From Thiotrichaceae bacterium (GTDB lineage: Bacteria > Pseudomonadota > Gammaproteobacteria > Beggiatoales > Beggiatoaceae): DNA of 64,000 bases. Positions 1-18,999 of the stretch are shown in pieces; the stretch's first letter is position 1, and each line of letters begins with the position of its first letter. The stretch covers positions 1 through 64,000 of the forward strand of contig JADGDF010000002.1 in NCBI GenBank assembly GCA_016745055.1. Direction: 5' to 3'. Below the pieces are notes generated by a model. The model made no database searches. It was not told the DNA's origin and saw only the letters and a program-made list of their open reading frames with translations. A program made the translations under genes and the position numbers.

Positions 1-1
1 T

Positions 2-661: not shown

Positions 662-669
662 TAAGATTT

Positions 670-727: not shown

Positions 728-766
728 TGATTTATACACTAAACTATCGTTTATTATTAGCTATCA

Positions 767-2092: not shown

Positions 2093-2601
2093 GTGTTTAA
2101 CTTCCTTAAAGTTAGATTTTTAAGTAATTACCACGAATGGAAACCAATTATCCTGCGGTATTGATATTATTAACCAAACACTTTGGCTGCTTTTTGAGTA
2201 ACGATTACACAATTAATATGCGGTTTTTAACAAAAAGTCAGATACTTTATACTTAAAATACAACAGCTTTGCGCAGGTTAAAGGGATAAAAAAGTCTAAA
2301 TTTTATTGTTTGTCTATTTTTAAATGTTGTTAGCGTATAGCATGAGAATTTCTAAACGCTTTTTTTTATGCCTCCTTAAATTTGAATATGGACTTTTTTC
2401 AATAAAGTATCATTCAAAAAACTAAGATGTTTTAACTTGTATTCTGATTTTTAAAATAAAACCTATATTAGTAAATAATATTTAGTTATACCTTTAAAAA
2501 TCAATAAATTATATAAATTAAACTTTATACTAAACTAGCATATTATACAATAATAGCGTCTAAATTGATTTAAAATCTTTTGAACAGGCAGAGCAACCGC
2601 A
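2093..2601. other. AT-rich intergenic region, nothing recognised
   Basis: About 500 bases between the TSUP operon start and a transposase remnant. It is strongly AT-rich with multiple stops in all frames. Promoters for the leftward TSUP operon should lie near its right-hand start, but I cannot pick one confidently. Confidence 0.5.
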
Positions 2602-3197
2602 TTAAAATATTTGCCCAAACACAAGGTTAGCTCGATAAGTGTTACTCCAACTAGCCTTGCGCCGTTTTTTAGCGAGACTCCCAGCAGTAGAATCTAGGTC
2701 AAAAAACCTCATGCACCAATGCCGGATTGTGGTCATGATAGCTGGCGCATTGCCTTTACGAATTCGACTCGAATCTTCATGAAAAACAACATCCAGACGC
2801 CAATGCAAGCGGTTTTTCCCCCTCAATATTCACGTACAGCTTTGGCGAATAGTTTGGCATTTGCAGCAAAAGAATTAATGAAATAGCACCGCTCCACCGT
2901 TTCTTTTTCACCCGTTAAACAGGTACGCTCCACCCTCCTGATACTTTCTCAACCCCTTCCATTTGTCCACATCAGGTAGCGTGGTTAAAATCCAGTAACG
3001 CTGGGTTTCTAAACGACCATGTCCTTTGTCAATATCTTCGGCAAAGTTGTATTGGACATGGCGATATTTATTTGTTTGCGCCGTATCAAAAAAATTAACA
3101 ACTGCCTCATGCAAGGAGCCTTGATTACCCTTGAGGCCAATTGAATAATCCCCACCCTGGTCAATTTGAGCTTGTGGATAGGCTTTGCGTAATGAAT
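2602..3197 (-). pseudogene. ISAs1-family transposase remnant
   Basis: Reading leftward, three frames together give the ISAs1 pattern: GGDYSIGLKGNQ, then DKGHGRLETQRYW, then ETVERCYFINSFAANAKLFAKAVREY, then LHWRLDVVFHEDSSRIR and the C-terminal KKRRKASW. The pieces are separated by at least two frameshifts, and a small deletion removes part of the segment before LHW. The N-terminal half is missing. The remnant lies directly upstream of the 3.4-16.3 kb metabolic cluster and is one of several decayed IS elements around it. Confidence 0.8.
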
Positions 3198-3370
3198 GTA
3201 ATAATAGAATCTATATAAGTTCAAAGAAACTAAAAAATATGGCTTTAATAAGGATAGTAATTCTGGTAGAGTTACATAATTAGTGCATTAATTAATTTAT
3301 GAGAATCTTGCTGCTGCAGAGCAGTTTATTTAAACTTGATATACTGTCCTATAAATAGGGGATATTTTCT

Positions 3371-4165
3371 GTGATCCACGACGATACTGTAGCCCAACTG
3401 AAGCATCAAGTGCAAACATTGCACGCTCAACACGGTTTAGTTTCTTTAAAAGCAGGTACTGAATGGGAGGATATGGATTACCAAGAAATTCAGTGGCTGT
3501 ACGAATTAGGTGAAAAACAACTCCCGATTCTAGTTAAAGTCGCTGGTCCCGAGGCCAAAGTCGATTTACGTCATTTGCAGGCCATCGGGGTTACAGGTTT
3601 ATTGGGTCCAATGATTGAATCCAATTATGCGATGGAAAAATTCGCTGACATCGCGCAAGCACATTATAAAAAGGCAACGCAAACGCCTATGTTAGCAGTC
3701 AATTTGGAAACAATTCATGCTCATGATCAACTTGATACATTAATCAGTAGTCCTGCTTTTGAGTCCATTGAATTAGTTGTCATTGGTCGTTTAGACCTTT
3801 CTTTATCAATGGGTATTGATGATGTAGATCATCCAAAAGTATTGGAAGTCACCCAGAATATTGTCAATAAAGTCAGTGCTGCTGGCAAACCAGTGTCCAT
3901 CGGTGGTTTTGTTAATCCTGCTACTGCTGGCAGTATCCGTGATACCTTTAATGTTAATTACCTCAACACTATCCACACTTTATTTGATCTGTCCAAAATA
4001 GACGATGTGGCTACCGCTATTTGGAGAGGCATTGAATTTGAAATTGATTTTTATGAATACCTAAAAACCCGCAACCCAGATCGCAACGAATTTTACCAAT
4101 CTCGCATTGAAACCAGTCAAGCAAAATTAGATAAAGCTGCAGATTTTGCACCTAGCAACACGTAA
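3371..4165 (+). CDS. HpcH/HpaI-type aldolase (citrate-lyase-beta superfamily)
   Basis: The 264-residue cytosolic enzyme starts at GTG with AGGGG nine bases upstream. The family's metal ligands are visible: Glu113 in NLETIHAH and Asp142 in IGRLDLSLSMG. KVAGPEAKVDLRHL and GLLGPMIES (about residues 56-84) match the subgroup often found in O-antigen and nucleotide-sugar clusters, rather than HpaI of aromatic degradation. The family makes or breaks C-C bonds using pyruvate or acyl-CoA enolates with Mg2+/Mn2+. It is the first gene of a co-directional accessory cluster, and the next gene begins 17 bases downstream. It likely builds or cleaves a 2-oxo-acid intermediate. The substrate cannot be read from the sequence. 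Confidence 0.75.
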   Translation: MIHDDTVAQLKHQVQTLHAQHGLVSLKAGTEWEDMDYQEIQWLYELGEKQLPILVKVAGPEAKVDLRHLQAIGVTGLLGPMIESNYAMEKFADIAQAHYKKATQTPMLAVNLETIHAHDQLDTLISSPAFESIELVVIGRLDLSLSMGIDDVDHPKVLEVTQNIVNKVSAAGKPVSIGGFVNPATAGSIRDTFNVNYLNTIHTLFDLSKIDDVATAIWRGIEFEIDFYEYLKTRNPDRNEFYQSRIETSQAKLDKAADFAPSNT

Positions 4166-4182
4166 ATTATTAGTGATGTTTA

Positions 4183-5550
4183 ATGAGTAATTACATCTGG
4201 AATACACAAGTGGATGTGTTGGTGGTTGGCAGTGGCTTTGCGGGGTTAACGGCTGCCATCGAAGCTGCACAAGCAGGTTGTTCTGTGCAAGTGGTTGAAA
4301 AGCGTGATTTTTACGGGGGTAACTCTTGGATTAGTGGAGGAGTGCTTGCTGCAGTTGACTTAGAAATGCAACAGCGTTACGGTATCCAAGACAGTACAGC
4401 CCAAATGTTTGACGATATGATGCGGGCGGGAAGAGCACGTAATGATCCTGCGTTAGTTCAACAAGTGTGTGCTCAATCGTATTCTGTTTTACAGTGGTTG
4501 CGCCAAGAGTTAGGCATCACTTTCATGGAACGCATTGAGCAATTTGGTGGACATTCTGTACCACGCTGTTATTCTGTCACCGATATTCAAGGACGCAATA
4601 TCGTTAACCCTTTACTCGCTCGTGCTCAGGCATTGGGTGTTGATCTGCGTTTAAACACACGTTTGACTGGTATATTACAAAACGAAAAACAACGTGTTGT
4701 TGGGTGTGAACTGATGGCTAAAGATAATACAGTGCAATGTGTGCAAACCACACGCGCTTTAATACTTGCCAGTGGTGGTTTTAGTGGTGAAGCGGATGAA
4801 CTACAACCAGCGACATCAAGTACTCGTTTAACCGATGCCACCAGTGACATTTTAAATTTAGCACAACAGTTTGGGGCAGAATTGATTGACTTAGACTGTG
4901 TGCAACTATTGCCTTGCGCTTCGCCTGATGAACCAGGACGAGGTGTCGCCCCCGTATTTGCTAGTTACGTTGTATTTCCTTATGGTATGATGTTAGATGT
5001 GGCTACAGGGCTGCGTTTTGTCAATGAATGGACAGATCGCAAAACACGCGCTGATGCCATGTTAGCTTTACAACAACCAGCCGTTGGTTTGACTGATCAA
5101 AACGGAATCAATAATGCTGGAGATATGATTCACCAGCATATGAATGACACTGTGATTCACCGTTTTGAGGACTTAGCTACCTTAGCGGTGGCTTATCAAT
5201 TCCCTGCAGATGCCCTGAAAAATAGTGTTCATACTTACAACCAATATGTTGAACAACAACACGATGCGGCTTTTGGCAAGCCTATTCCTGCCCGCGCTAA
5301 ACCACTTGCACCACCCTATTATGCATTGCGTTTATGGCCAAAAACTCATTCGACAATGGGCGGTTTACGCATCAATGCCCATACTCAAGTGTTAAACTGT
5401 GAAGGACAAGTCATTCCTGGTTTATTCGCGGCCGGTGAGGTGATAGGTGGTGTGCATGGTGTATCGCGTTTAGGCGGCTGTGCTATTACCGAATGTTTAG
5501 TACTGGGGCGTGTTGCAGGTCAACAAGCCGCTTTATTTCCCAAACTTTAA
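4183..5550 (+). CDS. FAD-dependent dehydrogenase/reductase (FrdA / 3-ketosteroid dehydrogenase-like)
   Basis: The 455-residue soluble flavoprotein has an N-terminal Rossmann site (VVGSGFAGLTAAIEAA, about residues 14-29). Its C-terminal FAD/active-site block is HSTMGGLRI, then GGVHGVSRLGGCAITECL (about residues 380-440). The Arg of the fumarate-reductase-type GG-HG-NRLGGNA block is kept, while its first Asn is Ser here and its second is Cys. There is no Sec or Tat signal and no haem motif, so it is neither periplasmic flavocytochrome c nor a complex II subunit. The family adds or removes a C=C bond next to a carboxylate or ketone, as in tricarballylate or ketosteroid dehydrogenases. In this cluster it probably oxidises or reduces the aldolase-derived acid. 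Confidence 0.75.
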   Translation: MSNYIWNTQVDVLVVGSGFAGLTAAIEAAQAGCSVQVVEKRDFYGGNSWISGGVLAAVDLEMQQRYGIQDSTAQMFDDMMRAGRARNDPALVQQVCAQSYSVLQWLRQELGITFMERIEQFGGHSVPRCYSVTDIQGRNIVNPLLARAQALGVDLRLNTRLTGILQNEKQRVVGCELMAKDNTVQCVQTTRALILASGGFSGEADELQPATSSTRLTDATSDILNLAQQFGAELIDLDCVQLLPCASPDEPGRGVAPVFASYVVFPYGMMLDVATGLRFVNEWTDRKTRADAMLALQQPAVGLTDQNGINNAGDMIHQHMNDTVIHRFEDLATLAVAYQFPADALKNSVHTYNQYVEQQHDAAFGKPIPARAKPLAPPYYALRLWPKTHSTMGGLRINAHTQVLNCEGQVIPGLFAAGEVIGGVHGVSRLGGCAITECLVLGRVAGQQAALFPKL

Positions 5551-5559
5551 TTAAGCCTT

Positions 5560-6549
5560 ATGAATTCATCTATACATAAAACTAGATTATTTACTGATAC
5601 TTACAGCGTGTTAGACGCGACTTTGCGTGATGCTGGCTACATGAATGATTGGCAGTTTTCCCGAGAGGAGATTTTTCAAGTTGTTGGCACTGTGGCACAA
5701 ACAGGTGTAGAAGCCATCGAAATCGGTTATATCAGTGATGATCCTGACAGGCCGCTTGCTGCTCGTTGTGATGTAGCGTTATTACAGGCTTTGCACGAAC
5801 ATACCAATGGGGTAAGCAACTTTGTGGTTATGCTCAGCCTCAGTGAACCTGATCCTGCCAGTCTATTTGCCAGCCGCGCAGAATTGATAGACTTAGTACG
5901 TCTTCCTAGCACCTTTGCCCAATTACCTCAAGCCCTAAAAATCGCAGAACAGGTTAAAAAACAGGGGATTGCGTGTAGCCTAAATTTAGTCAATATTTCA
6001 ACCTTAGAACGGGAAGATTTTCTGCAGGTTGCCCAAGAAGTTAAACACAGTGAAGTCGTCGATATTTTTTATTTAGCGGATTCTCGAGGCGCTTGTCATC
6101 CAGACGAAGTATTTAGCATGGTGAGCACGGTACGCGAAGTATGGGAGGGACGATTTGGCTTTCACGCCCATGATAACACAGGGTTTGCAGCAGTCAATCC
6201 ACTCCGCGCTCTGGAAGCTGGTTGCCAGCTCATTGATGGTACAGTCAATGGATTAGGTTTGGGCAGTGGCAATACCAAGTTATCTCATGCATTGAGTATG
6301 GTACAACAACGTTGTCCTGAAAAAAATTACAATATTGCTGCACTAGATGCCATTTGTCGTAGTTTCCGCGTCCCCATGCCTGCTGAAAAAAGCTACTTGC
6401 ATTATTTATTAGGGGCAAAAAATCTTGCTCAATTGTGGGTTGAACCATTGATTGAACGTTATGGCAAAGACACCGAACGTTTGCTGCAAATGATTCCACG
6501 CAGAGCTTACACCGATATTCAACAAGTGTTTGCTGAGATTGATACATGA
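5560..6549 (+). CDS. HMGL-like DRE-TIM aldolase
   Basis: The 329-residue TIM-barrel metalloenzyme opens with LDATLRDAGY (residues 18-27), a variant of the DRE-TIM signature with LRDA-GY in place of TLRDG. The metal-binding HxH is His202-Ala-His204 in FHAHDNTG, followed by the DGTVNGLGLGSGNTK block. The length and LRD-GY form resemble 4-hydroxy-2-oxovalerate-aldolase-like proteins found in polysaccharide clusters. The acyl-CoA-specific C-terminal domains of isopropylmalate synthase are absent. It starts nine bases after the flavoprotein and overlaps the methyltransferase by ATGA, so it belongs to one transcript. It probably joins or splits a 2-oxo acid and an aldehyde. Confidence 0.75.
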   Translation: MNSSIHKTRLFTDTYSVLDATLRDAGYMNDWQFSREEIFQVVGTVAQTGVEAIEIGYISDDPDRPLAARCDVALLQALHEHTNGVSNFVVMLSLSEPDPASLFASRAELIDLVRLPSTFAQLPQALKIAEQVKKQGIACSLNLVNISTLEREDFLQVAQEVKHSEVVDIFYLADSRGACHPDEVFSMVSTVREVWEGRFGFHAHDNTGFAAVNPLRALEAGCQLIDGTVNGLGLGSGNTKLSHALSMVQQRCPEKNYNIAALDAICRSFRVPMPAEKSYLHYLLGAKNLAQLWVEPLIERYGKDTERLLQMIPRRAYTDIQQVFAEIDT

Positions 6550-7187
6550 GCCAACTTAGCCTATCTGATTTGCAACAAACCGATTTAAGTGAGCTGGATG
6601 TCGTGGCACGTTACAGCGAGTTCGCACCTACGTATGATGAATCTGTGACTAATTGGGGCTATCAATGCTATCGTACAGCCGCAGAACTTTTACAGCCTTA
6701 CGTTGGACATGAGCAACCCATTCTTGATGCAGGCTGTGGGACGGGCTTAGTTGGGAAATCTCTGTATGAATTAGGTTATCAACAGTTAACAGGCATTGAT
6801 ATTTCACCCGATATGCTGGAACGTGCAGAACGCCTAGATTGTTATCAAAACCTACAACGGCAAGATTTAAGTGCAATACCATACTCATTTGCAGACAACC
6901 AATTTGTCGCAATTACCTGTGTTGGCGTATTTTCTCTTATCGCAGAACCTCGTCCTGTGTTACAAGAATTCTGGCGCCTGTTGCAATCAGGGGGGTATTT
7001 GGTATTTACGCAACAGGCTGTGTTATTTGAAAAATATGATTATACTAAATTACTACAAGAATTTGAGCAACGTGGTGAATTCCAGCGTATTGCCATCACC
7101 GATCCTATAGTTTATTTGCCGCAGCGTGAAGGTTACGAAGAACGTACAGTCATTTATTGTACTTATCAAATTCACAAGGGTTCTTGA
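6546..7187 (+). CDS. Class I SAM-dependent methyltransferase
   Basis: The 213-residue protein has motif I ILDAGCGTGLVG at about residues 59-70, the acidic motif II (GIDISPDML) and post-motif DNQFVAITCVGVFS. The N-terminal YDESVTNWGY resembles the METTL27/WBSCR27-like group of small-molecule methyltransferases. The ATG overlaps the stop of the aldolase by four bases and the next gene starts three bases after its stop, so it is tightly embedded in the operon. It likely O-, N- or C-methylates the pathway product. The acceptor is unknown. Confidence 0.8.
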   Translation: MSQLSLSDLQQTDLSELDVVARYSEFAPTYDESVTNWGYQCYRTAAELLQPYVGHEQPILDAGCGTGLVGKSLYELGYQQLTGIDISPDMLERAERLDCYQNLQRQDLSAIPYSFADNQFVAITCVGVFSLIAEPRPVLQEFWRLLQSGGYLVFTQQAVLFEKYDYTKLLQEFEQRGEFQRIAITDPIVYLPQREGYEERTVIYCTYQIHKGS

Positions 7188-7189
7188 AC

Positions 7190-8134
7190 ATGAAAAAATG
7201 CCTAGTTATTAATGACCGTGAACCCATTCCTGAAGACCACTTGAATGATGTTACTGAATTAGACACTGTTTGGTACCAAAAAACAGGGGAAGCTTTTTCC
7301 TTAGATGAGGCCATTGCTCAAAATCTTGATACACAAATTATTGTCACCACGTATATGGATTTGAGTGCGGCGCGTTTACAGCAATTACCTAAATTGGAAC
7401 TTGTCATTACCACCACCATTTCCACTCATTTTGTCGACTCAGGGTATTGTCGAGAACACGGCATCCAAATTGTTAACACAGCCAATTATACCGGCGCTTC
7501 CGTGGCAGAACATGCGGTTGCTTTAATGATGGCGGGAATGCGTAAAATTCCAGCGATTGATCAACAAGTGCGGCAAGGCAATACGGATTGTTTTGATTTT
7601 CCTGGTACAGAGTTATCCAGTAAAACGACTGGCATTATTGGTTTTGGCAATATTGGGGCGTACACGGCTCAGTTATTGAGTGGGTTTAATATGCAGTTAC
7701 AATTTTATAATCGCTCGCCTAAAACCAGCCCCATTGCCCAAGCGGTGGACGTAGATACCTTGGTAGAAACCTCTGATGTTGTATTTTTAAGTTTGCCATT
7801 GAATAATGAATCACGTCATATTATTAATGCTGAACGTTTACAACGGATGAAAAACACGGCGTTGTTGGTGAATACATCACCCGATGATGTGATGGATTTG
7901 GCTGCCGTTAAAGCCGCTGTGCTCAATGGGGATATTGGTGGAATAGCCTTGGATTTACTCAATGCTAACTTTTTCCTAGAATGCCCCAATACCATTCTTA
8001 CTCCACGTCGTGCTTGGTTCACTAATGAATGTTTTACGCGCCGTATTGGGATGTGGAAAGATACCTTAAAAGGTTATTTGAGTGGTACACAGCTTGATAA
8101 TCAAAATGCGGAAGATTTTGTGCCTATTTCTTGA
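7190..8134 (+). CDS. D-2-hydroxyacid dehydrogenase-fold protein lacking the Arg/Glu/His catalytic triad
   Basis: The 314-residue protein has the two-domain D-2-hydroxyacid dehydrogenase fold, with the NAD site GFGNIG at residues 151-156. The start is the ATG at 7190, three bases after the methyltransferase stop; an in-frame ATG at 7157 lies inside that gene. The canonical active site is altered. NTARG is NTSPDD (Pro231 for Arg), the Glu five residues after the conserved Asp255 is Asn260, and TPH is TPRRAW (Arg273 for His). The NAD-binding loop is intact. It is therefore either an oxidoreductase using different residues or a non-catalytic NAD-binding subunit. Ordinary lactate- or glycerate-type activity is unlikely. 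Confidence 0.7.
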   Translation: MKKCLVINDREPIPEDHLNDVTELDTVWYQKTGEAFSLDEAIAQNLDTQIIVTTYMDLSAARLQQLPKLELVITTTISTHFVDSGYCREHGIQIVNTANYTGASVAEHAVALMMAGMRKIPAIDQQVRQGNTDCFDFPGTELSSKTTGIIGFGNIGAYTAQLLSGFNMQLQFYNRSPKTSPIAQAVDVDTLVETSDVVFLSLPLNNESRHIINAERLQRMKNTALLVNTSPDDVMDLAAVKAAVLNGDIGGIALDLLNANFFLECPNTILTPRRAWFTNECFTRRIGMWKDTLKGYLSGTQLDNQNAEDFVPIS

Positions 8135-8222
8135 GAGTGAATGTACTTTGTTCTACAGTTGTTTGATATTGTATTAGTGGATGATGCTACGCTTATCTAC
8201 CCTAACATTTGCTTGATTAGTA

Positions 8223-8250
8223 AGGTGGGCAAAATAATGTGAAACCCACC
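8223..8250. repeat. Short hairpin GGTGGG...CCCACC
   Basis: GGTGGG (8223-8228) and CCCACC (8245-8250) form a small stem. It lies between the dehydrogenase-like gene and the antitoxin-like remnant and lacks a T-run. It could terminate or attenuate the upstream operon, or be the left edge of an inserted toxin-antitoxin segment. Confidence 0.3.
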
Positions 8251-8276
8251 AAACAACTACAAAAGAGATATAAGCG

Positions 8277-8420
8277 ATGTATGCCTATAGAGAAATGTTA
8301 ACACTAACTGATCCACAGACTTTGCATCTCAAACAACCCTTGCCATTTGGCAAGGGACAACGAGTTGAAGTTGTTGTATTGATTAGTAATGAGAATGAAG
8401 AATTACAAATTCTGGAGTAG
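8277..8420 (+). CDS. Small antitoxin-like ORF (47 residues)
   Basis: ATG 8277 follows AAAGAGATATAAGCG and encodes a 47-residue acidic polypeptide (MYAYREMLTLTDPQTLHLK...). Its length and strand-forming pattern (RVEVVVLISNENEE) resemble small AbrB/DUF104-like proteins that accompany toxin-antitoxin modules. Its stop is four bases before the Phd/YefM-like remnant, which supports a TA origin. No toxin gene follows. The assignment is by context and pattern only. Confidence 0.4.
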   Translation: MYAYREMLTLTDPQTLHLKQPLPFGKGQRVEVVVLISNENEELQILE

Positions 8421-8423
8421 AAT

Positions 8424-8632
8424 ATGACGAAGGTTTTTACATACTCAGAAGCTAGGCAAAACTTCGCGAAAATATTGGTTTTAGCGCAATCGGAAGAAAT
8501 AAAAAGAAAAGATGGGGCAGTTTTTGTACTAAAGTAAAAAGTGTGTCATCACCTTTTGATGTTGAGGGCATAAAAACAAATGCAACCACTCAAAATATAC
8601 TTGATGCCGTCAGAACTAGCAGAATGGGCTAA
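8424..8632 (+). pseudogene. Phd/YefM-type antitoxin, frameshifted
   Basis: The first frame (8424-8537) reads TYSEARQNFAKIL then KRKDGAVFVLK, the DNA-binding half of a Phd/YefM antitoxin, and stops at TAA. The following frame continues in register with the family's C-terminal half (SPFDVEGI... TTQNILDAVRTSR) to the TAA at 8630-8632. One small indel therefore separates the DNA-binding half from the toxin-neutralising half. The remnant is stranded inside the metabolic cluster, between the dehydrogenase-like gene and the first P-type ATPase. Confidence 0.6.
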
Positions 8633-8692
8633 TTTGTCGCTCAAGGCCGATCACCCCATAGGCATCCAACTTAAGCACTACAGTTTTCTGTT

Positions 8693-8731
8693 ATAGTCAT
8701 CACCATTGAAAAGTTGCCAAATTCAGATTTT
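8693..8731 (+). repeat. Solo IS630-type terminal repeat
   Basis: This stretch (atagtcatcaccattgaaaa and on to cagatttt) matches the left end of the IS630 remnant at 35801-35840 with only a few mismatches over nearly 40 bases. No transposase follows it here. It is a scar of an IS630-family copy that inserted inside the metabolic cluster and was deleted. Confidence 0.6.
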
Positions 8732-8747
8732 CTCCACCCTACAAACA

Positions 8748-8888
8748 GTGAAGGATAACCCTAGTTCAGCCCTACACGTTTATTTAGGCAATCTAAGAAC
8801 CACTGAGCGTTCCTTATTTGATTGGGAAACAGGGGAAGCTTCCCCATTTACGACTGAGACTTATAACAAACTACTACGTTTTTCTTAG
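8748..8888 (+). other. Open tail of an unrecognised gene just upstream of the first ATPase
   Basis: From about 8748 to the TAG at 8886-8888 one frame reads VKDNPSSALHVYLGNLRTTERS and ends GEASPFTTETYNKLLRFS. The first ATG of that frame (8706) lies within the IS630 scar, so that start is probably artificial. The stop is 13 bases before the ATPase ATG, and the AGAGGT ribosome site falls in between, which is the spacing of a true upstream operon gene. I read it as the 3' end of a cluster gene truncated by the IS630 insertion. I recognise no family. Confidence 0.35.
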
Positions 8889-8901
8889 ACTAGAGGTTCT
8901 C

Positions 8902-10926
8902 ATGCCACTTGGATTGACAGTTTTGGTGGGAGTATACTCCACCCTACGGGTGTTAGAATATCAGCAAAAACGCTATCAAAAAAGCTTACAAAAAGGTACT
9001 CCTCCTGCATCTATTCCACAGCAAAAATCACAGAGTCTTTCGCAAAAAATCCGTAGTATTAACTTGACAAAACGAAGTTCCAAAGCTGATCTAAACCTTT
9101 CGTTGGCAGGGGTCGGGTTGGCTGTATTGCAACCCCTAGTTTTACCTGGTTGGTCTTTTTTGAATGCATTTCTAATTGGTTACAGTGCCTATCCTTATAT
9201 GAAAGGATTTGAACGTTCTATTCTTGACAAAAAGATAAGCAATGATGTATTAGGCGCAGCTTGGATAATATTAGCCACCAGCGGTAATCAATATTTTGCA
9301 GCGACATTAGGCAATGTGGTTTATCATCTTGGTACCAACTTTATTGAAAAAAACCGTCAATCTTCTCGGGACTCAATGGTGCATATTTTTGACCGAGAAA
9401 ATCGGCAAGCCTGGGTACTCAAAGAGGGGACTGAAATTGCAATTCCGCTCATACAAGTGATGACTGGTGATGTTGTGATTATTCGCAGTGGAGATATGAT
9501 TCCTGTGGATGGAACTATTATCCAAGGGTCTGCCCGCATTGATCAACATGTATTGACCGGCGAATCCCAAGCCGTTGAAAAGTCAGTTAATGATCAGGTT
9601 TTTGCTTCTACTTTGTTAATCAGTGGGCAAATTCAAGTATTAGTTGAAAAAGCAGGTAACGATACAGTGGTGGCTAAAATTGAAACAACACTGGCTCAAA
9701 CCACAGATTTCAAAAGTACATTACAAATGAAAGGTGAGGAATGGGCTGATAAGTCTGCACCTTATTTATTAGGTTTTGCAGGACTAACGGCTTTGGTTGC
9801 TGGTCCTGCTTCGGGGGCTGCAGTTCTCAATGCTCAAATTGGCTATCAACTTAGAATGGTGGCGCCCCTCAGCACTCTACGCTATTTATCAAAGGCTACT
9901 CACGATAGTATCTTGGTTAAAGACGGACGTTCCCTAGAAACTTTAAACACAATTGATACCTTTTTGTTTGACAAGACGGGCACGCTGACTGAAGAGCAGC
10001 CCCATGTTGGACAGGTAGTTATTTGGGGACATTATACTGAAGAACAGGTGTTAAGATTAGCCGCCATTGCTGAATTTAAATTGACTCATCCGGTCGCCAA
10101 AGCTATTTTGCAAGCTTACGCTCGTTACGAACAACCCCTGCCGGAACTTGATAACACCCACTATGAAATGGGATTCGGTACCAAAGTGAGCTGGGAAGAA
10201 CAGATAATTCGTGTGGGTAGTTTGCGTTTTATGCAAAACGAAGGTTTATTGTTGGATGATAACACCCAAACTGAGCTTGAACCCATCTATGTTCAAGGAC
10301 ATTCTGTGGTACTGGTTGGCATAAATAACAATGTTATTGGAGCCATTGAAATTAAGCCAACAATCCGTAGCGAAATTCCAGCGTTGATTGCAAACTTAAA
10401 ACAGCGAGGTAAGCACGTAGCCATTGTATCTGGTGATCATGATAAACCCACACAACGTTTGGCTCAACAATTGGGCATTGAAGAATACTTTGCTGAAGTC
10501 TTGCCAGAAGATAAAGCCAATATTGTAGATTTGCTCAAGCAACAAGGTCGTAAAGTTTGCTTTGTAGGTGATGGTATTAATGATACCATTGCAATGAAAA
10601 AGGCACAGGTATCTATTTCCTTACAGGGAGCTTCCAGCATTGCCACGGATACAGCCGATATTTTATTAATGAGTGGTGATTTGAAGCCCTTAGTTAAACT
10701 GTTAGATATTGCCCAAAACCTGCAAAAGACTATGTACAGAAGTGCCTGGTTAGTTGCTATCCCCAGTACTGTGGTATTAAGCAGTAGTTTGCTTCTACAT
10801 ACAGGATTGTTGTTCGCTATTTTGGTGAAGAATACATTTTTAAGTTCTAATGTTTTTTATGTTCTGCAAAAATCTAAACCTCATTTACAGTCAGAGAAAG
10901 CATTGCCAAACTCTACAAAATTATAG
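8902..10926 (+). CDS. P1B-like P-type ATPase without CPx metal site (copy 1)
   Basis: The 674-residue membrane pump starts at ATG 8902 behind AGAGGT. The machinery is intact: TGES (219-222), Asp357 in DKTGTLT, His396-Pro397 and GDGIND (556-561). The transport site is not. Where CtpC-like P1B pumps have a D-Y-S-C-A-L-R-L-type motif before the cytosolic loop, this protein has IGYQLRMVAP (Gly314, Tyr315, Gln316) with no Cys, His or acidic ligand. The last helices also lack the expected His-Asn pair (VKNTFLSSN). There is no N-terminal heavy-metal-associated domain. It probably couples ATP hydrolysis to movement of something other than a soft metal ion, or is regulatory. It sits among biosynthetic enzymes and has a close paralogue 2 kb downstream. 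Confidence 0.8.
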   Translation: MPLGLTVLVGVYSTLRVLEYQQKRYQKSLQKGTPPASIPQQKSQSLSQKIRSINLTKRSSKADLNLSLAGVGLAVLQPLVLPGWSFLNAFLIGYSAYPYMKGFERSILDKKISNDVLGAAWIILATSGNQYFAATLGNVVYHLGTNFIEKNRQSSRDSMVHIFDRENRQAWVLKEGTEIAIPLIQVMTGDVVIIRSGDMIPVDGTIIQGSARIDQHVLTGESQAVEKSVNDQVFASTLLISGQIQVLVEKAGNDTVVAKIETTLAQTTDFKSTLQMKGEEWADKSAPYLLGFAGLTALVAGPASGAAVLNAQIGYQLRMVAPLSTLRYLSKATHDSILVKDGRSLETLNTIDTFLFDKTGTLTEEQPHVGQVVIWGHYTEEQVLRLAAIAEFKLTHPVAKAILQAYARYEQPLPELDNTHYEMGFGTKVSWEEQIIRVGSLRFMQNEGLLLDDNTQTELEPIYVQGHSVVLVGINNNVIGAIEIKPTIRSEIPALIANLKQRGKHVAIVSGDHDKPTQRLAQQLGIEEYFAEVLPEDKANIVDLLKQQGRKVCFVGDGINDTIAMKKAQVSISLQGASSIATDTADILLMSGDLKPLVKLLDIAQNLQKTMYRSAWLVAIPSTVVLSSSLLLHTGLLFAILVKNTFLSSNVFYVLQKSKPHLQSEKALPNSTKL

Positions 10927-10947
10927 ATTGTTTTAGGGAGATTTATT

Positions 10948-11967
10948 ATGACAACAAGCATGACAACCCAACAACGCCAGGCCATTAAAATTTTTACGCA
11001 CAAAGGTAATGTGCCTGATTCTGAAAGTGAACAATACCACTTGAATGTTAGCCAATACCCAAATTCAGAAGGGTTAAAAGCAGAAGTGTTACGTCGCTGG
11101 AATCAAGATGGTATTATGGTGGTATCAAACAGTGGCATGACGCATTTGAGCGAGTTAAAACGTTGGGGCGCAATGATTTTTGATGATTTTGTAGATTATG
11201 AAGGGGGGTCAGCTCCACGCAGTGCTTGGGGGGAAGGAGTTTTCAATATTGATGATACCCCTTCGCATATTAACATGTGCTATCACAACGAAATGTGTTA
11301 TTTGCCTGCCTACCCACGTTGTTTTCTGGTTGGTTCCCTTGCTGTACCAAAGCTAGGTGGAGAAACAATGGTATCAGACAACCATGCAACTACCACTGCT
11401 TTATTAGCCACGGATGTAGGACAACAACTCAAAACCCGACGAGTACGTTATATCCGCAATATGACAGATAAACATAGCGATAAACTAAGCTACAAATCTT
11501 GGCAAGATACGTTTAAAACAGAAAGCCGTGAAGATGTGGAACGCTATATTGCCAAGACAGATTGGGAATATGAATGGTTAGATGATGGTACCTTGCGGAC
11601 GTCCTATATCGTTGATGCGTATGAATGGCATGAAAATTTGCAAGAAAACCTATTTTTCTCTGGTATGGTCAGTCATGCTTCATTTTTTGATCAATGGACG
11701 GGCTTTAATCAACTTGATGATCCAGAGCGTCCTTTCACGATGACTTATGGTGATGGCCAACCGTTTAATGACAATGAATTACAAATACTATTTGATATTT
11801 ACAATAAGCGTAGTTTTCCTATTCGTTGGCAACAATTTGATTTAGCCATCTTAGATAATTTACGTTGGACCCATGCACGTCCTGCATTTCAGCTAACTGA
11901 AAACGAACAACGGGTAATGGGAGTCTCAATGGGTATGATGAGACAACGTGTCGGTGCACATTTTTAA
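10948..11967 (+). CDS. SyrP/TauD-like Fe(II)/2-oxoglutarate-dependent oxygenase
   Basis: The 339-residue cytosolic enzyme has the facial triad: His113-Asn-Glu115 (CYHNEMCY) and His309 in DNLRWTHARPAF, with Arg311 placed to bind 2-oxoglutarate. GGETMVSDN follows the first two ligands as in SyrP, clavaminate-synthase-like and TfdA-type proteins. The Glu in place of the commoner Asp is typical of SyrP-like hydroxylases in secondary metabolism. It starts 21 bases after the ATPase stop behind a GGGAG site. It probably hydroxylates or desaturates an acid intermediate. It is more SyrP-like than taurine-dioxygenase-like, so I see no direct link to sulfonate use. Confidence 0.8.
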   Translation: MTTSMTTQQRQAIKIFTHKGNVPDSESEQYHLNVSQYPNSEGLKAEVLRRWNQDGIMVVSNSGMTHLSELKRWGAMIFDDFVDYEGGSAPRSAWGEGVFNIDDTPSHINMCYHNEMCYLPAYPRCFLVGSLAVPKLGGETMVSDNHATTTALLATDVGQQLKTRRVRYIRNMTDKHSDKLSYKSWQDTFKTESREDVERYIAKTDWEYEWLDDGTLRTSYIVDAYEWHENLQENLFFSGMVSHASFFDQWTGFNQLDDPERPFTMTYGDGQPFNDNELQILFDIYNKRSFPIRWQQFDLAILDNLRWTHARPAFQLTENEQRVMGVSMGMMRQRVGAHF

Positions 11968-11976
11968 GAGGGTATT

Positions 11977-13083
11977 ATGCGTATTAAAAAGGTATCTTTA
12001 TACCGCAAAGAAATGCCGATGGTGTGTGGTAAATTTTCGTGTTCTTTAGAACCTGGCACAGAGACGGCAGATGTCGTTATTACCCGCATAGAAACTGAAT
12101 GTGGTTTAGTGGGCTATGGCGAAGCAGGTTCTGTAGGTGGCTATCCCAATTATGCACTGGGTACGCTAGCGAGTAGTGCAGAACTGATTGAGCGGCATTT
12201 AATGAGTAAAGACCCCCGCGATCTTAATCAGATTCAATACATCATGTCCTTGATTGATGGTCACGGAGCGACAAAAGCAGGGTTTGATATGGCCTGTTGG
12301 GACATTATTGGTAAAGCCTCTGGCAAGCCTTTGTATGAAATGTTAGGAGGCAAGTTTATTGAACAAGTGCCTTTGTATCGTTCTATCCCCACGATTGAAC
12401 CGGACGAAATGGTAAAATCAGTCGAAGACTGGCGTAGTGAAGGCTATAAAATGTTTCAGCTACGAGTCGGACATGGGGATATTCAAGCGGATTTAGCTCG
12501 TATTTCTGCAGTCATTTCTCAGCGTCAACCAGGAGAACTTTACACGGTAGATGTAGCAGGACATTGGCGACGCGACGAAGCTTTGTCTATTTTAAATGCA
12601 GTAAAAGAGTTGGATTTTACCATTGAGCAACCTTGCTGGATGATGGAAGACTGCATGTCTATCCGCGACCGTTGCCAATTCCCTATGAAGTTGGATAATA
12701 GCCTCAACAGTGTACATGATATTTTACGGGCTTATACCAAGCAAGCCTGTGACAGTATTGTATTGCAAATCAGTAAATATCCTGGGGTGAGTCATGCACG
12801 TTTAGCCCGAGATATAGCAGTCACTGGGAGTTTGGGTATTACTTATTCAACGCAGTGGGGGACGGAAATTACTGGCGCAGTACTGACACAATTGGCTATG
12901 ACTACGCCACCCAATCGCTTTATCAGTACCTTAGATATCCACAATTATTCTTCTTTATCTGTTGCCCATAATCATCCCATTAATGTTGAAAATGGTATGA
13001 TGTGGATGGCACATGATAAACCTGGTTTAGGTATAGAAGTGAATGATGCTGTTCTTGGTGAACCTAATCTGGTGATTGAATAA
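11977..13083 (+). CDS. Enolase-superfamily (MR/MLE-like) enzyme, copy 1
   Basis: The 368-residue protein has the capping domain (to about residue 125) and barrel of the superfamily. The metal ligands Asp192, Glu217 (IEQPC) and Asp240 (KLDN) are all present. The usual KxK base motif on the second strand is Gln161-Leu-Arg163 (FQLRVG), so one or both bases of the mandelate-racemase mechanism are altered. Lys267 (QISKY) may be the opposing base. The pattern is closest to cis-3-hydroxyproline dehydratase or hydroxyproline-betaine epimerase relatives. The superfamily abstracts an alpha-proton from a carboxylate, giving epimerisation or dehydration. It starts 9 bases after the oxygenase and is paralogous to the gene at 15170, with nearly identical length. 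Confidence 0.75.
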   Translation: MRIKKVSLYRKEMPMVCGKFSCSLEPGTETADVVITRIETECGLVGYGEAGSVGGYPNYALGTLASSAELIERHLMSKDPRDLNQIQYIMSLIDGHGATKAGFDMACWDIIGKASGKPLYEMLGGKFIEQVPLYRSIPTIEPDEMVKSVEDWRSEGYKMFQLRVGHGDIQADLARISAVISQRQPGELYTVDVAGHWRRDEALSILNAVKELDFTIEQPCWMMEDCMSIRDRCQFPMKLDNSLNSVHDILRAYTKQACDSIVLQISKYPGVSHARLARDIAVTGSLGITYSTQWGTEITGAVLTQLAMTTPPNRFISTLDIHNYSSLSVAHNHPINVENGMMWMAHDKPGLGIEVNDAVLGEPNLVIE

Positions 13084-13087
13084 TACT

Positions 13088-15160
13088 ATGTCGCTACTTC
13101 TCACACTTGCAGGTCTTACCTTGGGAGGCGCTGCATCATTTCTTGCTGATAAACTGCCTGACAAAACCAAGTTACCCTTTGCTGGTGGGAGTCAACTGAC
13201 TGACAAAATTAAATCACAATGGGTACAACGTAAAACTGGTTTAGCTAACACAAAAGTAGAGGACAAAACGGTAGAGACTTCTCCCAAAATGTCCCCTGCC
13301 GAAACTGAGGCGGCTCACCAACAAGGTATCGCTCTCAGTGCTGCTAGTTTGTTGGTTATAGGAACAATAACTACACCTGTGGTGGCTTGGCTGGGTTTGC
13401 CCCTGTTGGGTTACAATGTTACTTATCTGCTGCGTAAAGTTTGGCATTCACTGCATAATCAAGGCAACTTTTCAGTTATTTTGCTGGATGTTTTATCAAT
13501 CGTATTTGCAATTTTTCTCGGTTTTTTCTTCATTGCCGCGTTGTTATTCAGTGCTATCTTCACAGCTAACCGCTTAATTGCTAGAACAGAGCGTGAGGCA
13601 CAAACGGATTTTAGCCGTATTTTTGGCGAATTATCCGACACTGTTTGGTTGTTGCAAGATGGAGCTGAAATTGAAGTCCCTTTGAGTAGTTTAAATGCTC
13701 AGGATGTGATTGTGGTTCATGCAGGCGATATGATACCTGTTGATGGGCATATTGTCGCAGGAGAAGGGCTGATAGATCAGCATTTATTGACTGGGGAGTC
13801 TCAGCCGGTAGAAAAAAAGGTAAGTGACCCCGTACTAACTTCAACCTTGTTAATTTCTGGTAGTCTGCACATTGTGGTTGAAAAACAGGGGTCTGAAACG
13901 ATTACGGGACAAATCGCTAAAACGTTGGAACATGCCGCTAGCTTTAAGCATAAAGTACAATCACGGGGCGAATATCTGGTTGAACAAGGGGCTTTTTATA
14001 CTTTGCTTGCATCAGGATTGACATTGCCTTTTCTTGGCTTGAACAAAGCAGTCGCCATTAGTTACAGTGGCTTTGGTTACCAAATGCGCATGGCTGCCCC
14101 ATTGATGGTATTAAATTATTTACGTATCGCTTCGCGCAATGGTATTTTGGTCAAAGATGGACAGGCTTTAGATACATTACATAGTGTGGATACCGTAATC
14201 TTTGACAAAACAGGGACTTTGACTGAAGAAACCCCCCAAGTTGAACAGTTGATTGCTTGTCATGGTTTTACAGAACAGCAATTATTACACTATGCTGCGA
14301 GTGCTGAGCAACGTCAAAAACACCCTGTTGCTCAAGCAATTACCAACTATGTTCAACAACAAGAGATGGAATTATTAGTTTTAGAACACAGTGAATATGT
14401 TATTGGGCATGGATTGCTAGCCACATTATTGGATACTGCGAAACAGCAAAATATTCGGGTCAAAGTTGGCAGCCAACGTTTTATCCAATCAGCTAATATT
14501 GAAGTGCCAGACAATATTGTACACATGCAACATGAAGCCGGTGCAAAAGGCCATTCTGTGGTATATGTAGCTTCTGAACAAGGACAACTGATTGGGGCAA
14601 TTGAATTGCGTCCTGCTTTACGTTCTCAGGCTAAAGACGCTATCGCAGCTTTGCATAAATTGGGCATAAAAGTTTATATTATTTCAGGCGATCAAGAAAA
14701 ACCTACCCGCCATTTAGCTCAAAGTCTTGGGATTGATGCTTATTTTTCAGAAACATTGCCGCAGGATAAAGCAAAACATGTTGAAGAATTGCAAGCTCAA
14801 GGACGCAAAGTCTGTTTTGTGGGTGATGGTATTAATGATTCTGTCGCCTTACAAAAAGCTGATGTGTCCGTTTCTCTGCATGGAGCAGCTACCATCGCTC
14901 AAGATACTGCTGATATTGTATTAATGACCCCTAATTTATCACATATCCCTTATTTAATTCGTATGTCTAAAGAATTAGATACACGTATGACCTTGAGTGA
15001 ACAATTGAATATGGGGTCTGGGGCTGTTTGTGTGTCAGGAGTATTCTTGTTGGGTATGGGAACAAGTGGCGCTATTTTTCTTTACTCCGCAGGTTTATTA
15101 ACGAATTTAGGGAATGCATTATTACCTTTATTTATTCATCCAGAAAAAAGCAATTCTTGA
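13088..15160 (+). CDS. P1B-like P-type ATPase without CPx metal site (copy 2)
   Basis: The 690-residue pump begins at ATG 13088, five bases after the enolase-like gene ends (an in-frame TTG at 13076 overlaps that gene). TGES starts at Thr235, the phosphorylated Asp373 is in DKTGTLT, and GDGIND starts at Gly579. As in copy 1, the transport motif is FGYQMRMAAP (Gly330, Tyr331, Gln332) instead of a Cys-containing site. The C-terminal helix pair (GAIFLYSAGLLTNLGN) carries no metal ligands. There is no HMA domain. An extra hydrophobic region near residues 85-165 and a Lys-rich N-terminus precede the actuator domain. The shared GYQ[LM]RM-AP motif shows that loss of ligands predates the duplication and is maintained by selection. 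Confidence 0.8.
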   Translation: MSLLLTLAGLTLGGAASFLADKLPDKTKLPFAGGSQLTDKIKSQWVQRKTGLANTKVEDKTVETSPKMSPAETEAAHQQGIALSAASLLVIGTITTPVVAWLGLPLLGYNVTYLLRKVWHSLHNQGNFSVILLDVLSIVFAIFLGFFFIAALLFSAIFTANRLIARTEREAQTDFSRIFGELSDTVWLLQDGAEIEVPLSSLNAQDVIVVHAGDMIPVDGHIVAGEGLIDQHLLTGESQPVEKKVSDPVLTSTLLISGSLHIVVEKQGSETITGQIAKTLEHAASFKHKVQSRGEYLVEQGAFYTLLASGLTLPFLGLNKAVAISYSGFGYQMRMAAPLMVLNYLRIASRNGILVKDGQALDTLHSVDTVIFDKTGTLTEETPQVEQLIACHGFTEQQLLHYAASAEQRQKHPVAQAITNYVQQQEMELLVLEHSEYVIGHGLLATLLDTAKQQNIRVKVGSQRFIQSANIEVPDNIVHMQHEAGAKGHSVVYVASEQGQLIGAIELRPALRSQAKDAIAALHKLGIKVYIISGDQEKPTRHLAQSLGIDAYFSETLPQDKAKHVEELQAQGRKVCFVGDGINDSVALQKADVSVSLHGAATIAQDTADIVLMTPNLSHIPYLIRMSKELDTRMTLSEQLNMGSGAVCVSGVFLLGMGTSGAIFLYSAGLLTNLGNALLPLFIHPEKSNS

Positions 15161-15169
15161 GTAATCTTT

Positions 15170-16279
15170 ATGCGTATTAATCGAGTTTCTTTATATCATA
15201 TCCACCTCCCCATGTTATGCTCTTCTTTTACCTGTTCACTGGAACCTGGTGTATCTAGTGCTGACGTGGTCATTGCAAAAGTTGAAACTGATGAAGGACT
15301 AGTGGGTTATGGTGAAGCAGGTGCAGTAGGCGGTTATCCCAATTATGCCAAAGGCATTCTTGCCAGCAGCGCAGAACTGATCAAGCGTCATCTTATTAAC
15401 AAAAACCCCTGTGACATTAACAGTATTCAACAAAGTATGTCTCTGATTGACGGCCATGGTTCAATCAAATCCGCTTTCGATATTGCCTGTTGGGATATTT
15501 TTGGCAAACTTTTAGGCCAGCCTATTAGCACTTTATTGGGTGGAAAATTAACAGATTCTGTGCCGATTTATCGTGGTTTACCTCTGAAAAAACCGGCTGA
15601 CATGGCAAAAGAAGCAGATGCTTGGCGTACAGAAGGGTATCGTTACCTGCTTATGAAGATAGGCTGTGGCAACCTTAATGAAGACATAGAATGCATTGAA
15701 GCCGTCATGCAAAATCGCCAGCCAGGGGAACATTATACGATAGATGCATCAGGACGTTGGCGGGTAGATGAAGCCTTAACTGTGCTCAAGGCCGTACAAC
15801 ACTTGGACTTCGTGCTTGAACAACCTTGCTGGACTTATGAAGAATGTCTGTCTGTGCGAGTGCGTACCCAACGTGCTATCAAGCTAGATAATGTTATTAC
15901 AGATATTGGCAAAGTACTACGGGCACAAGCGGATCGCTCTTGTGAACTTATGACCTTGAAAATTGACAAGCTGGGTGGTATCACACAGGCAAGAATTGCT
16001 AAAGATATTGCCTCCGCAGCAGCGATAGGGGTCACCATAGAAGCTCAATGGGGTACGGAAATTCTCGGTGCGGCTGTCACACAATTAGCGCTGACCACGC
16101 CCCCCAATCGACTATTAGCCGCACCAGATATTCATACCTACTCTTCAATTTCGACGACTAGCAACAATCCTATTAAGGTTGAAAATGGACAAATGAGTAT
16201 GAATAATGAATCAGCAGGTTTAGGTATTGTCGTGAATGATGATGCTTTGGGCGAAGCAAGTCTTGTGATTGAAGCGTAG
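15170..16279 (+). CDS. Enolase-superfamily (MR/MLE-like) enzyme, copy 2
   Basis: The 369-residue paralogue of the enzyme at 11977 aligns with it over its full length. The metal ligands Asp192 (TIDASGRW), Glu217 (LEQPC) and Asp240 (KLDN) are kept. On the second strand the motif is Leu161-Met-Lys163 (LLMKIG), so the second Lys of KxK is present here but is Arg in copy 1. Lys267 (LKIDKLGG) is conserved. The two copies therefore differ exactly at the catalytic base and probably act on different substrates or opposite faces. It is the last gene of the cluster; it starts nine bases after the second ATPase, and a decayed IS4 element follows at once. Confidence 0.75.
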   Translation: MRINRVSLYHIHLPMLCSSFTCSLEPGVSSADVVIAKVETDEGLVGYGEAGAVGGYPNYAKGILASSAELIKRHLINKNPCDINSIQQSMSLIDGHGSIKSAFDIACWDIFGKLLGQPISTLLGGKLTDSVPIYRGLPLKKPADMAKEADAWRTEGYRYLLMKIGCGNLNEDIECIEAVMQNRQPGEHYTIDASGRWRVDEALTVLKAVQHLDFVLEQPCWTYEECLSVRVRTQRAIKLDNVITDIGKVLRAQADRSCELMTLKIDKLGGITQARIAKDIASAAAIGVTIEAQWGTEILGAAVTQLALTTPPNRLLAAPDIHTYSSISTTSNNPIKVENGQMSMNNESAGLGIVVNDDALGEASLVIEA

Positions 16280-16830
16280 AAATCTAACTTCCAAGACCTT
16301 GCTTAAAAATAGTTTTAGCCTTGTAACCCTGCTTGCAAACACGCATAGCTTTTTGTTCTGAGAACCATAAACCCATTCGATAGCATCAAATAAAAGCCAA
16401 GACAAGAAGTGCCAATAACCGACTGACTCTTTGTGGGTCGGTCAAATGCGCCTCTTCCAAATTAAAGCCACGGATTTTCAAGGCATTAACGAGTTTTAGA
16501 TAAGTTTATAGTTGTTAAGTTTACAGTTGTTTCGGGAATGGAATGCAGTAGATTTCTCGAAACGACCGAGAGAATTTCATCCTCGGTTTGTGTCAAATGT
16601 GTCATGGGTAGCTTCAGACAACCAATTCACCCATAAAGTTCTCAGTGAAGTGATTGTCCAACTATCATCACGTAGAAATCGTTGGAGACATTTGTCATTC
16701 GATTCTACTTGGGCATTATGCTCAAAATGCACTGCTCAGCTGAGATTTACTGTGTGCAACTCAATAATCGCTAACAGGCAATGCGCCATCAAAAAACATC
16801 GGGGTACACCAGGCTAATGTTGGTAGATTA
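16280..16830 (-). pseudogene. IS4-family transposase remnant
   Basis: Leftward, the piece at about 16490-16280 reads [19 protein letters not shown], then LLALLVLAF, and ends KAKTIFKQGLGS. This is the C-terminus of an IS4-group transposase with TGA where the family has Trp. The piece at about 16830-16600 gives AHCLLAIIELHTVNLS and CLQRFLRDDSW in mixed frames, matching the N-terminus. The catalytic middle is deleted. The remnant abuts the 3' end of the metabolic cluster (stop at 16279). Confidence 0.65.
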
Positions 16831-17346
16831 TCTACCAACTGCTTCAGTTTTGTTGGGCTTTACATCATCAATGAATTTTGGTTATCAAATAAATGGGAAA
16901 TCATAAACTGTATTAAAAATTTATTAACACTATTTTATGCCCTGTCGTCAGGATACAACCTAAGTTTTTCAGTAAAAAATTAAATTTATGAATAACCAAT
17001 ATCATTTTTGTTTTTCCTTTACACTAATGTGATAGCATAATGCGTAATTTACTCACAATTAAGACCTTCACTTTCATAGCTTTTATAATATACTTAACAT
17101 TAGTTGATGTAAGTTTTATGGGTAACTATTTTGAGTACACAATGGCAAATTTTTATCTATAAATTTTACAAAATAGTATAGTGAGTAATTTTTCGTATAT
17201 GATTTAAATTGTATTTAATGGCAGGTAGGTTGAGTTATGTGGTATATGATAGAAACAAAGGTATTTAAATACTTTACAATACATTGACTTCTAATCAGAG
17301 ACATAACTTTAAATACTCATATTTCAACTATGAGAGGTTCAAGACC
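16831..17346. other. AT-rich gap upstream of the SMR exporter
   Basis: No convincing coding sequence is seen. The next gene is a guanidinium-type exporter, so I looked for guanidine riboswitch hairpins with ACGR loops and found none. Upstream promoter elements are likely but not assignable by eye. Confidence 0.4.
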
Positions 17347-17667
17347 ATGAACTGGCTAATTTTAACATTTGCGGGGATTTTCGAAGTTACATTTGTGATT
17401 GCACTGAAATACTCAGATGGATTTACCAAGCTATGGCCAAGCACAACGACTATTATTGCTGGAATCCTAAGCTTATTTCTCCTCTCACTTGCACTAAGAA
17501 GTATTCCTGTGGGTACAGCTTATGCTGTGTGGACAGGTATTGGCATTGCAGGCAGTGCAATGATGGGTATTCTTTTCTTTCATGAGCCTAAAGAGGCCGC
17601 TAGAATTATTAGCATCTTATTACTTCTTGGCGGTATTATTGGCCTGAATTTGACTTCCACGCATTAG
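17347..17667 (+). CDS. SMR-family exporter, SugE/Gdx (guanidinium) type
   Basis: The 106-residue protein has four transmembrane helices. The start is ATG 17347 behind GAGAGG; the longer in-frame extension to 17284 is soluble and unlikely. The active-site Glu13 lies in FAGIFEVTFVIALKYSDGF. PVGTAYAVWTGIGIAGSAMMG is the SugE/Gdx signature rather than EmrE. The family exports guanidinium in exchange for protons as an antiparallel dimer. The gene stands alone between an IS4 remnant and an unrelated permease. Confidence 0.8.
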   Translation: MNWLILTFAGIFEVTFVIALKYSDGFTKLWPSTTTIIAGILSLFLLSLALRSIPVGTAYAVWTGIGIAGSAMMGILFFHEPKEAARIISILLLLGGIIGLNLTSTH

Positions 17668-17828
17668 TAATTATATTTCTCCATTTTTCTTACTAATAAA
17701 GGTGAGAAAGAAGGAGAAAAAATTATGTTCGATCATTTAGCTATCCCATATAGAAAGACCTACAAGCCTGTTGTTAGGAAAAAATCTCTGCTTATACCAG
17801 ATTGTTAATCATTTAAATATTCTAAAAA

Positions 17829-18953: not shown

Positions 18954-18999
18954 GCTGATAGGTTGGAACTCTTTATGAAACTTTGTTAACTTAAAAAAT

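Follow-up and report, generated by a model that had tools for sequence, protein, structure and literature searches.

A family of P-type ATPases lacking the P1B metal-site signature is linked to biosynthetic genes in giant sulfur bacteria and other phyla

We analysed a window of 64,000 nucleotides (positions 1 to 64,000 of contig JADGDF010000002.1, assembly GCA_016745055.1) from a Thiotrichaceae bacterium of the Beggiatoaceae. Ten co-directional genes at 3371-16279 include two P-type ATPases, ATPase A and ATPase B, and both are members of a large family in which the metal-binding signature of P1B-type pumps is absent from the M4 helix. The association of this family with biosynthesis is both strong and specific. 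On the strength of gene content and motifs, we consider it reasonably probable that the window operon makes a small organic metabolite, that ATPase B is its dedicated pump, and that the pumps of this family export the organic products of neighbouring clusters.

Sequence, structure and distribution of the ATPase family

ATPase A (8902..10926, + strand; clade A) carries GYQLRMVAP in M4 and ATPase B (13076..15160, + strand; clade B) carries FGYQMRMAAP. An earlier, sequence-only reading of the window had described two P1B-like ATPases, which are indeed present, but had missed their membership in a large amplified family. Motifs were counted over 61 diverse family members, with the genome's own FixI pump as control. 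DKTGT and GDGIND were present in all 61 proteins, and the fold, the invariant glutamate of the A-domain, the His-Pro of the N-domain and the break in M4 are also shared with P1B-type metal ATPases such as CopA, ZntA and FixI. In contrast, the CPC/CPH/SPC/PCP signature that defines the metal site in the helix before DKTGT of P1B-type ATPases (PMC4932525) was found in none of the 61, whereas the FixI control matched. The C-P-C of CopA aligns with F-G-Y of ATPase B, and F-G-Y and its variants take the place of CPx in the family. The P1B-1 motif YNx4P was likewise absent (0/61), and MxxSS (P1B-1) and DxG(X)7N (P1B-2) were each seen in a single member; the FixI pump shows CPC, YNx4P and MxxSS. The pattern GMxCxxC was found in 0/61 members, but it misses the FixI control too; no heavy-metal domain was seen, and Pfam assigned only ATPase and hydrolase domains to the two window ATPases.

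Forty-nine distinct 13-residue M4 cores occur among the 61 proteins. Position 338 is Arg or Lys in 56 of them, and the ATPases that adjoin nspC have Asp, without Arg or Lys, in the core. In the AlphaFold (AF2) model of ATPase B (mean predicted local distance difference test score, pLDDT, 84.6) a non-helical break falls exactly at this core segment of M4, and the top Foldseek match of this model was CopA of L. pneumophila (4bbj, E=1.9e-36). Scores of family members exceed the 'heavy metal translocating' cut-off, and automatic annotation gives them that name.

Thiomargarita, Thioploca and Marithrix are members of the bacterial family to which the host genome (G000, 4.65 Mb) is assigned. This genome holds 11 copies of the ATPase family with ATPase B as query (E<=1e-90, query included), along with one canonical P1B pump of the FixI/CcoI type. 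When ATPase A was the query, all family members of this genome fell at E<=1e-119, separated by a gap from the next relative (3e-53), a FixI-type copper pump that has CPC. Within the order, 34 of 43 genomes carry the ATPases, with up to 19 copies in one genome. Beyond the order their occurrence is sporadic, with the family present in 7 of 274 genomes sampled across the class (two of the seven, the host and one more, being from the host's own family) and, with a different query, in 6 of 399 genomes of the phylum. A scan with an alignment of the M4 fragment gave 386 loci in GTDB species genomes from about nine phyla; the best 80 of these 386 include Magnetococcales, Desulfobacterota, SAR324, Poribacteria, Chloroflexi, Verrucomicrobia, Acidobacteria, Bacteroidota and Methylococcales, many of them as metagenome-assembled genomes (MAGs).

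In the tree, the family divides in two, ATPase A lying in clade A (13 rows) and ATPase B in clade B (70 rows). Canonical pumps lie on very long branches, and their attachment, and hence strict monophyly of the family, is unsure; the long FixI branch that falls inside clade A is taken as probable long-branch attraction. Two P-type ATPases with a GTGIR(M/I)AAP core in M4 (L084 9591 and L087 3890) branch beside the family and may link it to the metal pumps. In the open-licence literature, searches linking the family to Beggiatoa/Thiomargarita, to norspermidine or to amidinotransferase clusters gave only generic metal and P5B papers and no description of it, and the family is apparently undescribed.

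Gene neighbourhoods of the family

Neighbours were defined as co-directional genes, up to three per side and with gaps of up to 300 nt, around 103 distinct ATPases, and the same rule was applied to random regions drawn from the host's bacterial family, giving 139 neighbours versus 122 controls. Co-directional neighbours within 300 nt were present for 85 of the 103 ATPases. Pfam counts among the 139 neighbours were 11 for methyltransferase, 5 each for histidine-specific (EgtD-like) methyltransferase and class I/II aminotransferase, 4 each for pyridoxal phosphate (PLP) decarboxylase, class V aminotransferase and non-ribosomal peptide synthetase (NRPS) condensation domain, and 3 each for ketosynthase and sulfotransferase. 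None of these eight biosynthetic families was among the 25 listed for the controls, a list that extends down to counts of three and lower, and no more than one or two controls can therefore hold any given one. Unlike P1B-type metal ATPases, the family sits in a biosynthetic gene context.

Amidinotransferases lie within 6 kb of 11 of the 103 ATPases, their identity having been checked against solved structures (best 1bwd, E=5e-107), and NRPS genes within 6 kb of 10. Matches above curated cut-offs were obtained for phosphoenolpyruvate mutase, phosphonopyruvate decarboxylase and 2-aminoethylphosphonate aminotransferase beside one ATPase, for carboxynorspermidine decarboxylase (NspC) beside another and for EgtD beside a third. 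The neighbouring genes are tightly operonic, often overlapping, and some are kept together across phyla: the Thioploca and SAR324 loci have a neighbour protein that is 75% identical next to ATPases that are 57% identical. In Desulfamplus and two Magnetococcales, members of one ATPase clade are immediately preceded by an NRPS gene. A homologous neighbour was common to 68% of pairs at 75-93% ATPase identity, a figure to which close kinship of the genomes contributes, and to 2-7% of pairs below that. Such a decay of context conservation with ATPase divergence is expected if each ATPase follows its own cluster, and not one pathway.

Two or three family ATPases occur at loci L047, L050, L057, L079, L080, L112 and L115. 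At L080 (13605-19407), L112 and L115, nspC and two carboxynorspermidine-synthase-like genes directly adjoin a family ATPase, and in L112 and L115 the same region has a second family ATPase next to a diaminobutyrate-decarboxylase-like gene; these nspC loci offer a natural test case with predictable substrates. Locus L048 (2018-12324), from a Thiotrichaceae MAG, holds a complete 2-aminoethylphosphonate route, methyltransferase-like genes and two family ATPases, and is a probable methylated phosphonate cluster.

Proposed export function and its alternatives

The loss of the metal site, taken together with the biosynthetic neighbours, indicates that family members probably pump out the molecules themselves. 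In the mechanism that we propose, ATPases A and B would belong to a P1B-derived family of P-type ATPases in which the phosphorylation machinery was kept and the metal site of M4 replaced. Each member would pick up the product of its own cluster, or an intermediate or precursor, from the cytoplasm; this cargo would bind to the remodelled site in M4 and be released outward across the inner membrane by the E1/E2 ATP cycle known from P1B pumps. In the window, the two aldolases, flavoprotein, methyltransferase, 2-oxoglutarate oxygenase and two enolase-superfamily enzymes would build the metabolite, with ATPase B serving as the dedicated pump of the operon. We infer the organic substrate, the outward direction (as in P1B pumps) and the setting of selectivity by M4 residues (Arg/Lys338 in most). 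The substrates of most enzyme families in the cluster are small acids of the hydroxy, oxo or dicarboxylic type, and the window product is probably acid-derived, 'small acid' being read from these families. We hypothesise that Arg or Lys in most M4 cores may suit acidic or zwitterionic products, and that Asp without Arg or Lys may suit a polycation in the nspC-linked clade.

Dedicated ATP-driven export or sensing had been suggested from the window alone. The family-wide context and the lost metal site support export well beyond this locus. ATPase A lies outside the conserved unit, and nothing favours a sensing role. We advance only tentatively the broader idea that a general class of ATP-driven pumps handling small organic metabolites has evolved in bacteria from the P1B chassis, with hundreds of members each matched to a biosynthetic cluster. 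The M4 core would then be a selectivity site that can be read from sequence, Arg/Lys pointing to acidic or zwitterionic products and Asp without Arg/Lys to polyamines. If this were true, many genes annotated as heavy-metal pumps would be misannotated, a class of primary transporters for natural products would have been overlooked, and the ATPase could be used as a genome-mining beacon for clusters without NRPS or polyketide synthase (PKS) genes, such as that of the window. To our knowledge, it would also be the first family of P-type ATPases in bacteria to carry organic solutes, and the change of a P-type ATPase from metal to organic cargo could be tested directly.

Among known systems, ATP13A2-type P5B ATPases are polyamine exporters (PMC8564547, PMC5856429). 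They set a precedent for P-type ATPases that move an organic molecule, and one bacterial clade of the present family adjoins norspermidine synthesis; however, P5B ATPases are eukaryotic and have a PPALP motif in M4 that is found in 0/61 family members, and the family is closest to P1B in sequence. The ATP-binding cassette (ABC) and major facilitator superfamily (MFS) exporters of natural-product clusters share the proposed job, with one dedicated transporter per cluster, but are an unrelated protein family. The myxobacterial miuraenamide cluster contains two 'heavy metal translocating P-type ATPases' (686 and 728 aa) among unexplained open reading frames (ORFs) between PKS/NRPS genes, to which the authors gave no role (PMC10051162). 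These resemble the family, by description only, in size, in their place between PKS/NRPS genes, in their automatic name and in occurring as two per cluster.

Several observations weigh against export of cluster products. In M. xanthus, deletion of miuraenamide orf14-16, which includes one ATPase, left the yield unchanged, and deletion of orf19-23, with the other ATPase and further genes, raised the yield tenfold and altered the product profile (PMC10051162). These effects are not what the loss of an indispensable exporter would be expected to cause, and they warn against taking the pump to be required for production, with the caution that the host was heterologous and that the two ORFs are likened to the family by description. 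In addition, 18 of the 103 ATPases are without an operonic neighbour, and some loci have housekeeping-like neighbours such as Maf and mobA. The proposed match between M4 charge and product is based on a single polyamine clade, and Arg/Lys at position 338 may have been inherited from an older P1B group and not selected for anions. Many of the genomes are MAGs, and some phylum assignments are possibly binning errors.

The ATPases could instead move metals through a site that has escaped recognition, supplying neighbouring enzymes with metal or clearing it for them, as FixI and CopA2 do for oxidases, and the 'heavy metal translocating' scores, the CopA-like fold and the metalloenzymes among the neighbours (TauD, MR/MLE, HMGL) are in keeping with this. 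However, the P1B ligand motifs that were tested are absent from the 61 members save for the single MxxSS and single DxGx7N, many neighbours (amidinotransferases, PLP enzymes, methyltransferases) have no metal cofactor, and 11 such pumps with diverse M4 sequences in one genome would be hard to explain; we regard metal transport as unlikely, if the least unlikely of the alternatives. The strong amplification in giant sulfur bacteria could also indicate that the ATPases are flippases for lipids or lipid-linked intermediates, or that they serve the envelope or vacuole physiology of these organisms, with the biosynthetic neighbours reflecting accessory islands. P4-type flippases are P-type ATPases that move organics. 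Against this, the family adjoins NRPS genes and amidinotransferases in non-giant taxa as well (Magnetococcales, SAR324, Bacteroidota), in the tight and partly conserved operons described above, and of the alternatives we find this one the hardest to credit.

The unimpaired production in the miuraenamide deletions (PMC10051162) would fit pumps that bring a precursor or signal into the cell, or back into it, or that give self-resistance without being the main exporter. The several loci with two or three ATPases point the same way. P1B pumps as a class export, however, and we know of no importing member; we judge this possibility to be improbable, ranking it between the other two. Export of cluster products by the family remains our preferred explanation.

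The window gene cluster and its relatives

Ten long ORFs, all on the + strand, were read from the window sequence at 3371-16279. They form two tight blocks, 3371-8134 and 8902-16279, with 767 nt between them and successive gaps of 17, 9, -4, -1, 767, 21, 9, -8 and 9 nt. The likeliest start of ATPase A is ATG 8902, and ATPase B starts at TTG 13076 or ATG 13088. This two-block arrangement had been described in the sequence-only reading and is borne out by the ORFs and gaps; Pfam agreed with every enzyme and ATPase family named there (HpcH_HpaI, FAD_binding_2, HMGL-like, methyltransferase, 2-Hacid_dh, E1-E2_ATPase with Hydrolase twice, TauD, and MR_MLE twice).

All of these genes but ATPase A, nine of ten, form a single operon in L133 (uncultured Thiotrichaceae HLG_WM_MAG_07), on a single strand with short gaps or overlaps and with 53-76% identity to the window proteins. 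Its order is HpcH (cut by the locus edge), FAD oxidoreductase, HMGL, methyltransferase, D-2-hydroxyacid dehydrogenase fold (DHdh), oxygenase, MR/MLE enzyme 1 (MR1), a cupin-like protein (178 aa, assigned by eye, without a Pfam match), an arylmalonate-decarboxylase-family protein (295 aa, PF17645), MR/MLE enzyme 2 (MR2) and ATPase B. A homologue of the arylmalonate-decarboxylase-like gene was sought in the host genome and not found. Marithrix L038 retains oxygenase, MR1, ATPase B, decarboxylase-like and FAD genes, with a fused HpcH/HMGL remnant upstream; at 10961-11329 of this locus the HpcH N-terminus is joined to the HMGL C-terminus by a deletion, leaving a remnant of the first genes of the cluster. 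The ATPase B-MR2 pair is retained in Thiomargarita nelsonii (L041/L165). Orthologues of ATPase B at 63-79% identity are present in four genomes, the closest (79%) being in Thioploca L040, where an aminotransferase-like gene and a methyltransferase-DHdh-HMGL block, followed by AroQ-like and ureohydrolase-like genes, lie some 1.1-4.6 kb away. This part of L040 (10645-15424, Thioploca CSMAG_545) looks like a second undescribed pathway that has a three-gene module in common with the window.

The conserved order that had been named as the mark of a system was found within one bacterial family, nearly complete or as subsets, and not across distant taxa. The cluster is, by these comparisons, a single system within that family, and the window pathway is a new, family-restricted cluster. 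ATPase A is missing from the L133, Marithrix, Thiomargarita and Thioploca loci; its nearest relative and sister, in L086 of Ca. Thiobius, stands beside saccharopine-dehydrogenase-type and ATP-grasp genes. The DHdh and oxygenase genes overlap in L133, and ATPase A sits between them in the window. ATPase A is thus a local insertion outside the conserved unit, and the gap at 8135..8901 (no strand assigned), as read directly and compared with L133, marks its entry between genes that touch there. This gap holds short ORF remnants resembling, by eye, YefM/Phd-type antitoxins, which suggest a decayed toxin-antitoxin module where ATPase A inserted. The GC content is 42.0% in the cluster versus 37.9% in the rest of the window, and third-position GC (GC3) is also higher (Mann-Whitney p = 0.001), which suggests that the cluster is a transferred unit.

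The first block opens with an HpcH/HpaI-type aldolase (3371..4165; PF03328 at 29.8 bits, just above the cut-off; 59% homologue in the L133 operon). It is followed by a FAD oxidoreductase of the fumarate-reductase/flavocytochrome-c type (4183..5550; TIGR01813 at 393 bits, above the cut-off; 65% identity in Marithrix and 60% in L133), which aligned over its full length with PDB 1qo8 (E=7e-65), including the 'TxR' and 'h.tmgg' stretches of flavocytochrome c fumarate reductases. A DRE-TIM (HMGL-like) aldolase (5560..6549; PF00682 1.6e-25; best PDB match 3dxi, a putative aldolase; 68% in L133) and an S-adenosylmethionine-dependent methyltransferase (6546..7187; PF08241 2.3e-19; 63% in L133) precede DHdh (7187..8134; PF02826), whose lack of the catalytic triad had been recognised earlier and is confirmed here. 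NTSPDD stands in place of NTSRG and TPRRAW in place of TPH, and the loss is common to two homologues at 69 and 44% identity. In a test of the Arg-Glu-His triad, Arg and His were replaced in 3/3 homologues, the Glu position being judged by eye. Since the triad is lost in all three aligned homologues, DHdh may be either a binding protein or a catalyst of other chemistry.

In the second block, a TauD/SyrP-like Fe(II)/2-oxoglutarate oxygenase (10948..11967; PF02668 1.1e-16; PDB 1y0z 5.6e-19; 56% in Marithrix, 53% in L133) carries the HxE...H ligands noted previously. Its lineage seems to be rare, because a scan with the oxygenase as lone query gave no relatives; 33% homologues in G167 stand outside any such cluster. 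MR1 (11977..13083; PDB 4mgg 3e-71) has Arg at the end of the KxK strand in place of the usual base Lys, and the Arg is kept in 3/3 orthologues. MR2 (15170..16279; PDB 4mgg 6e-69) keeps the Lys, and its 77% homologue adjoins ATPase B in Thiomargarita. The two are distinct lineages, each conserved. Their closest curated family is cis-3-hydroxy-L-proline dehydratase, at 297.5 and 295.1 bits and so below the 500-bit cut-off. A trans-aconitate-like antimetabolite, considered as a product in view of the aldolases and the fumarate-reductase-like enzyme, was dropped as unsupported.

An Rfam scan of window positions 1-20000 gave no RNA element, and promoter and terminator scans gave matches at chance level. 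A defence reading was not supported: in PADLOC the ATPases had no match, and the methyltransferase matched only mad2 and MTase_II, weakly. Elsewhere in the window, two overlapping ORFs in different frames at 37109-38832 look like a single exported protein, with a CxxCH motif, whose gene is broken or has suffered a frameshift, and 41808-46034 encodes a secreted-type protein of 1408 aa with DUF11-like repeats and, by eye, a von Willebrand A-like C-terminus.

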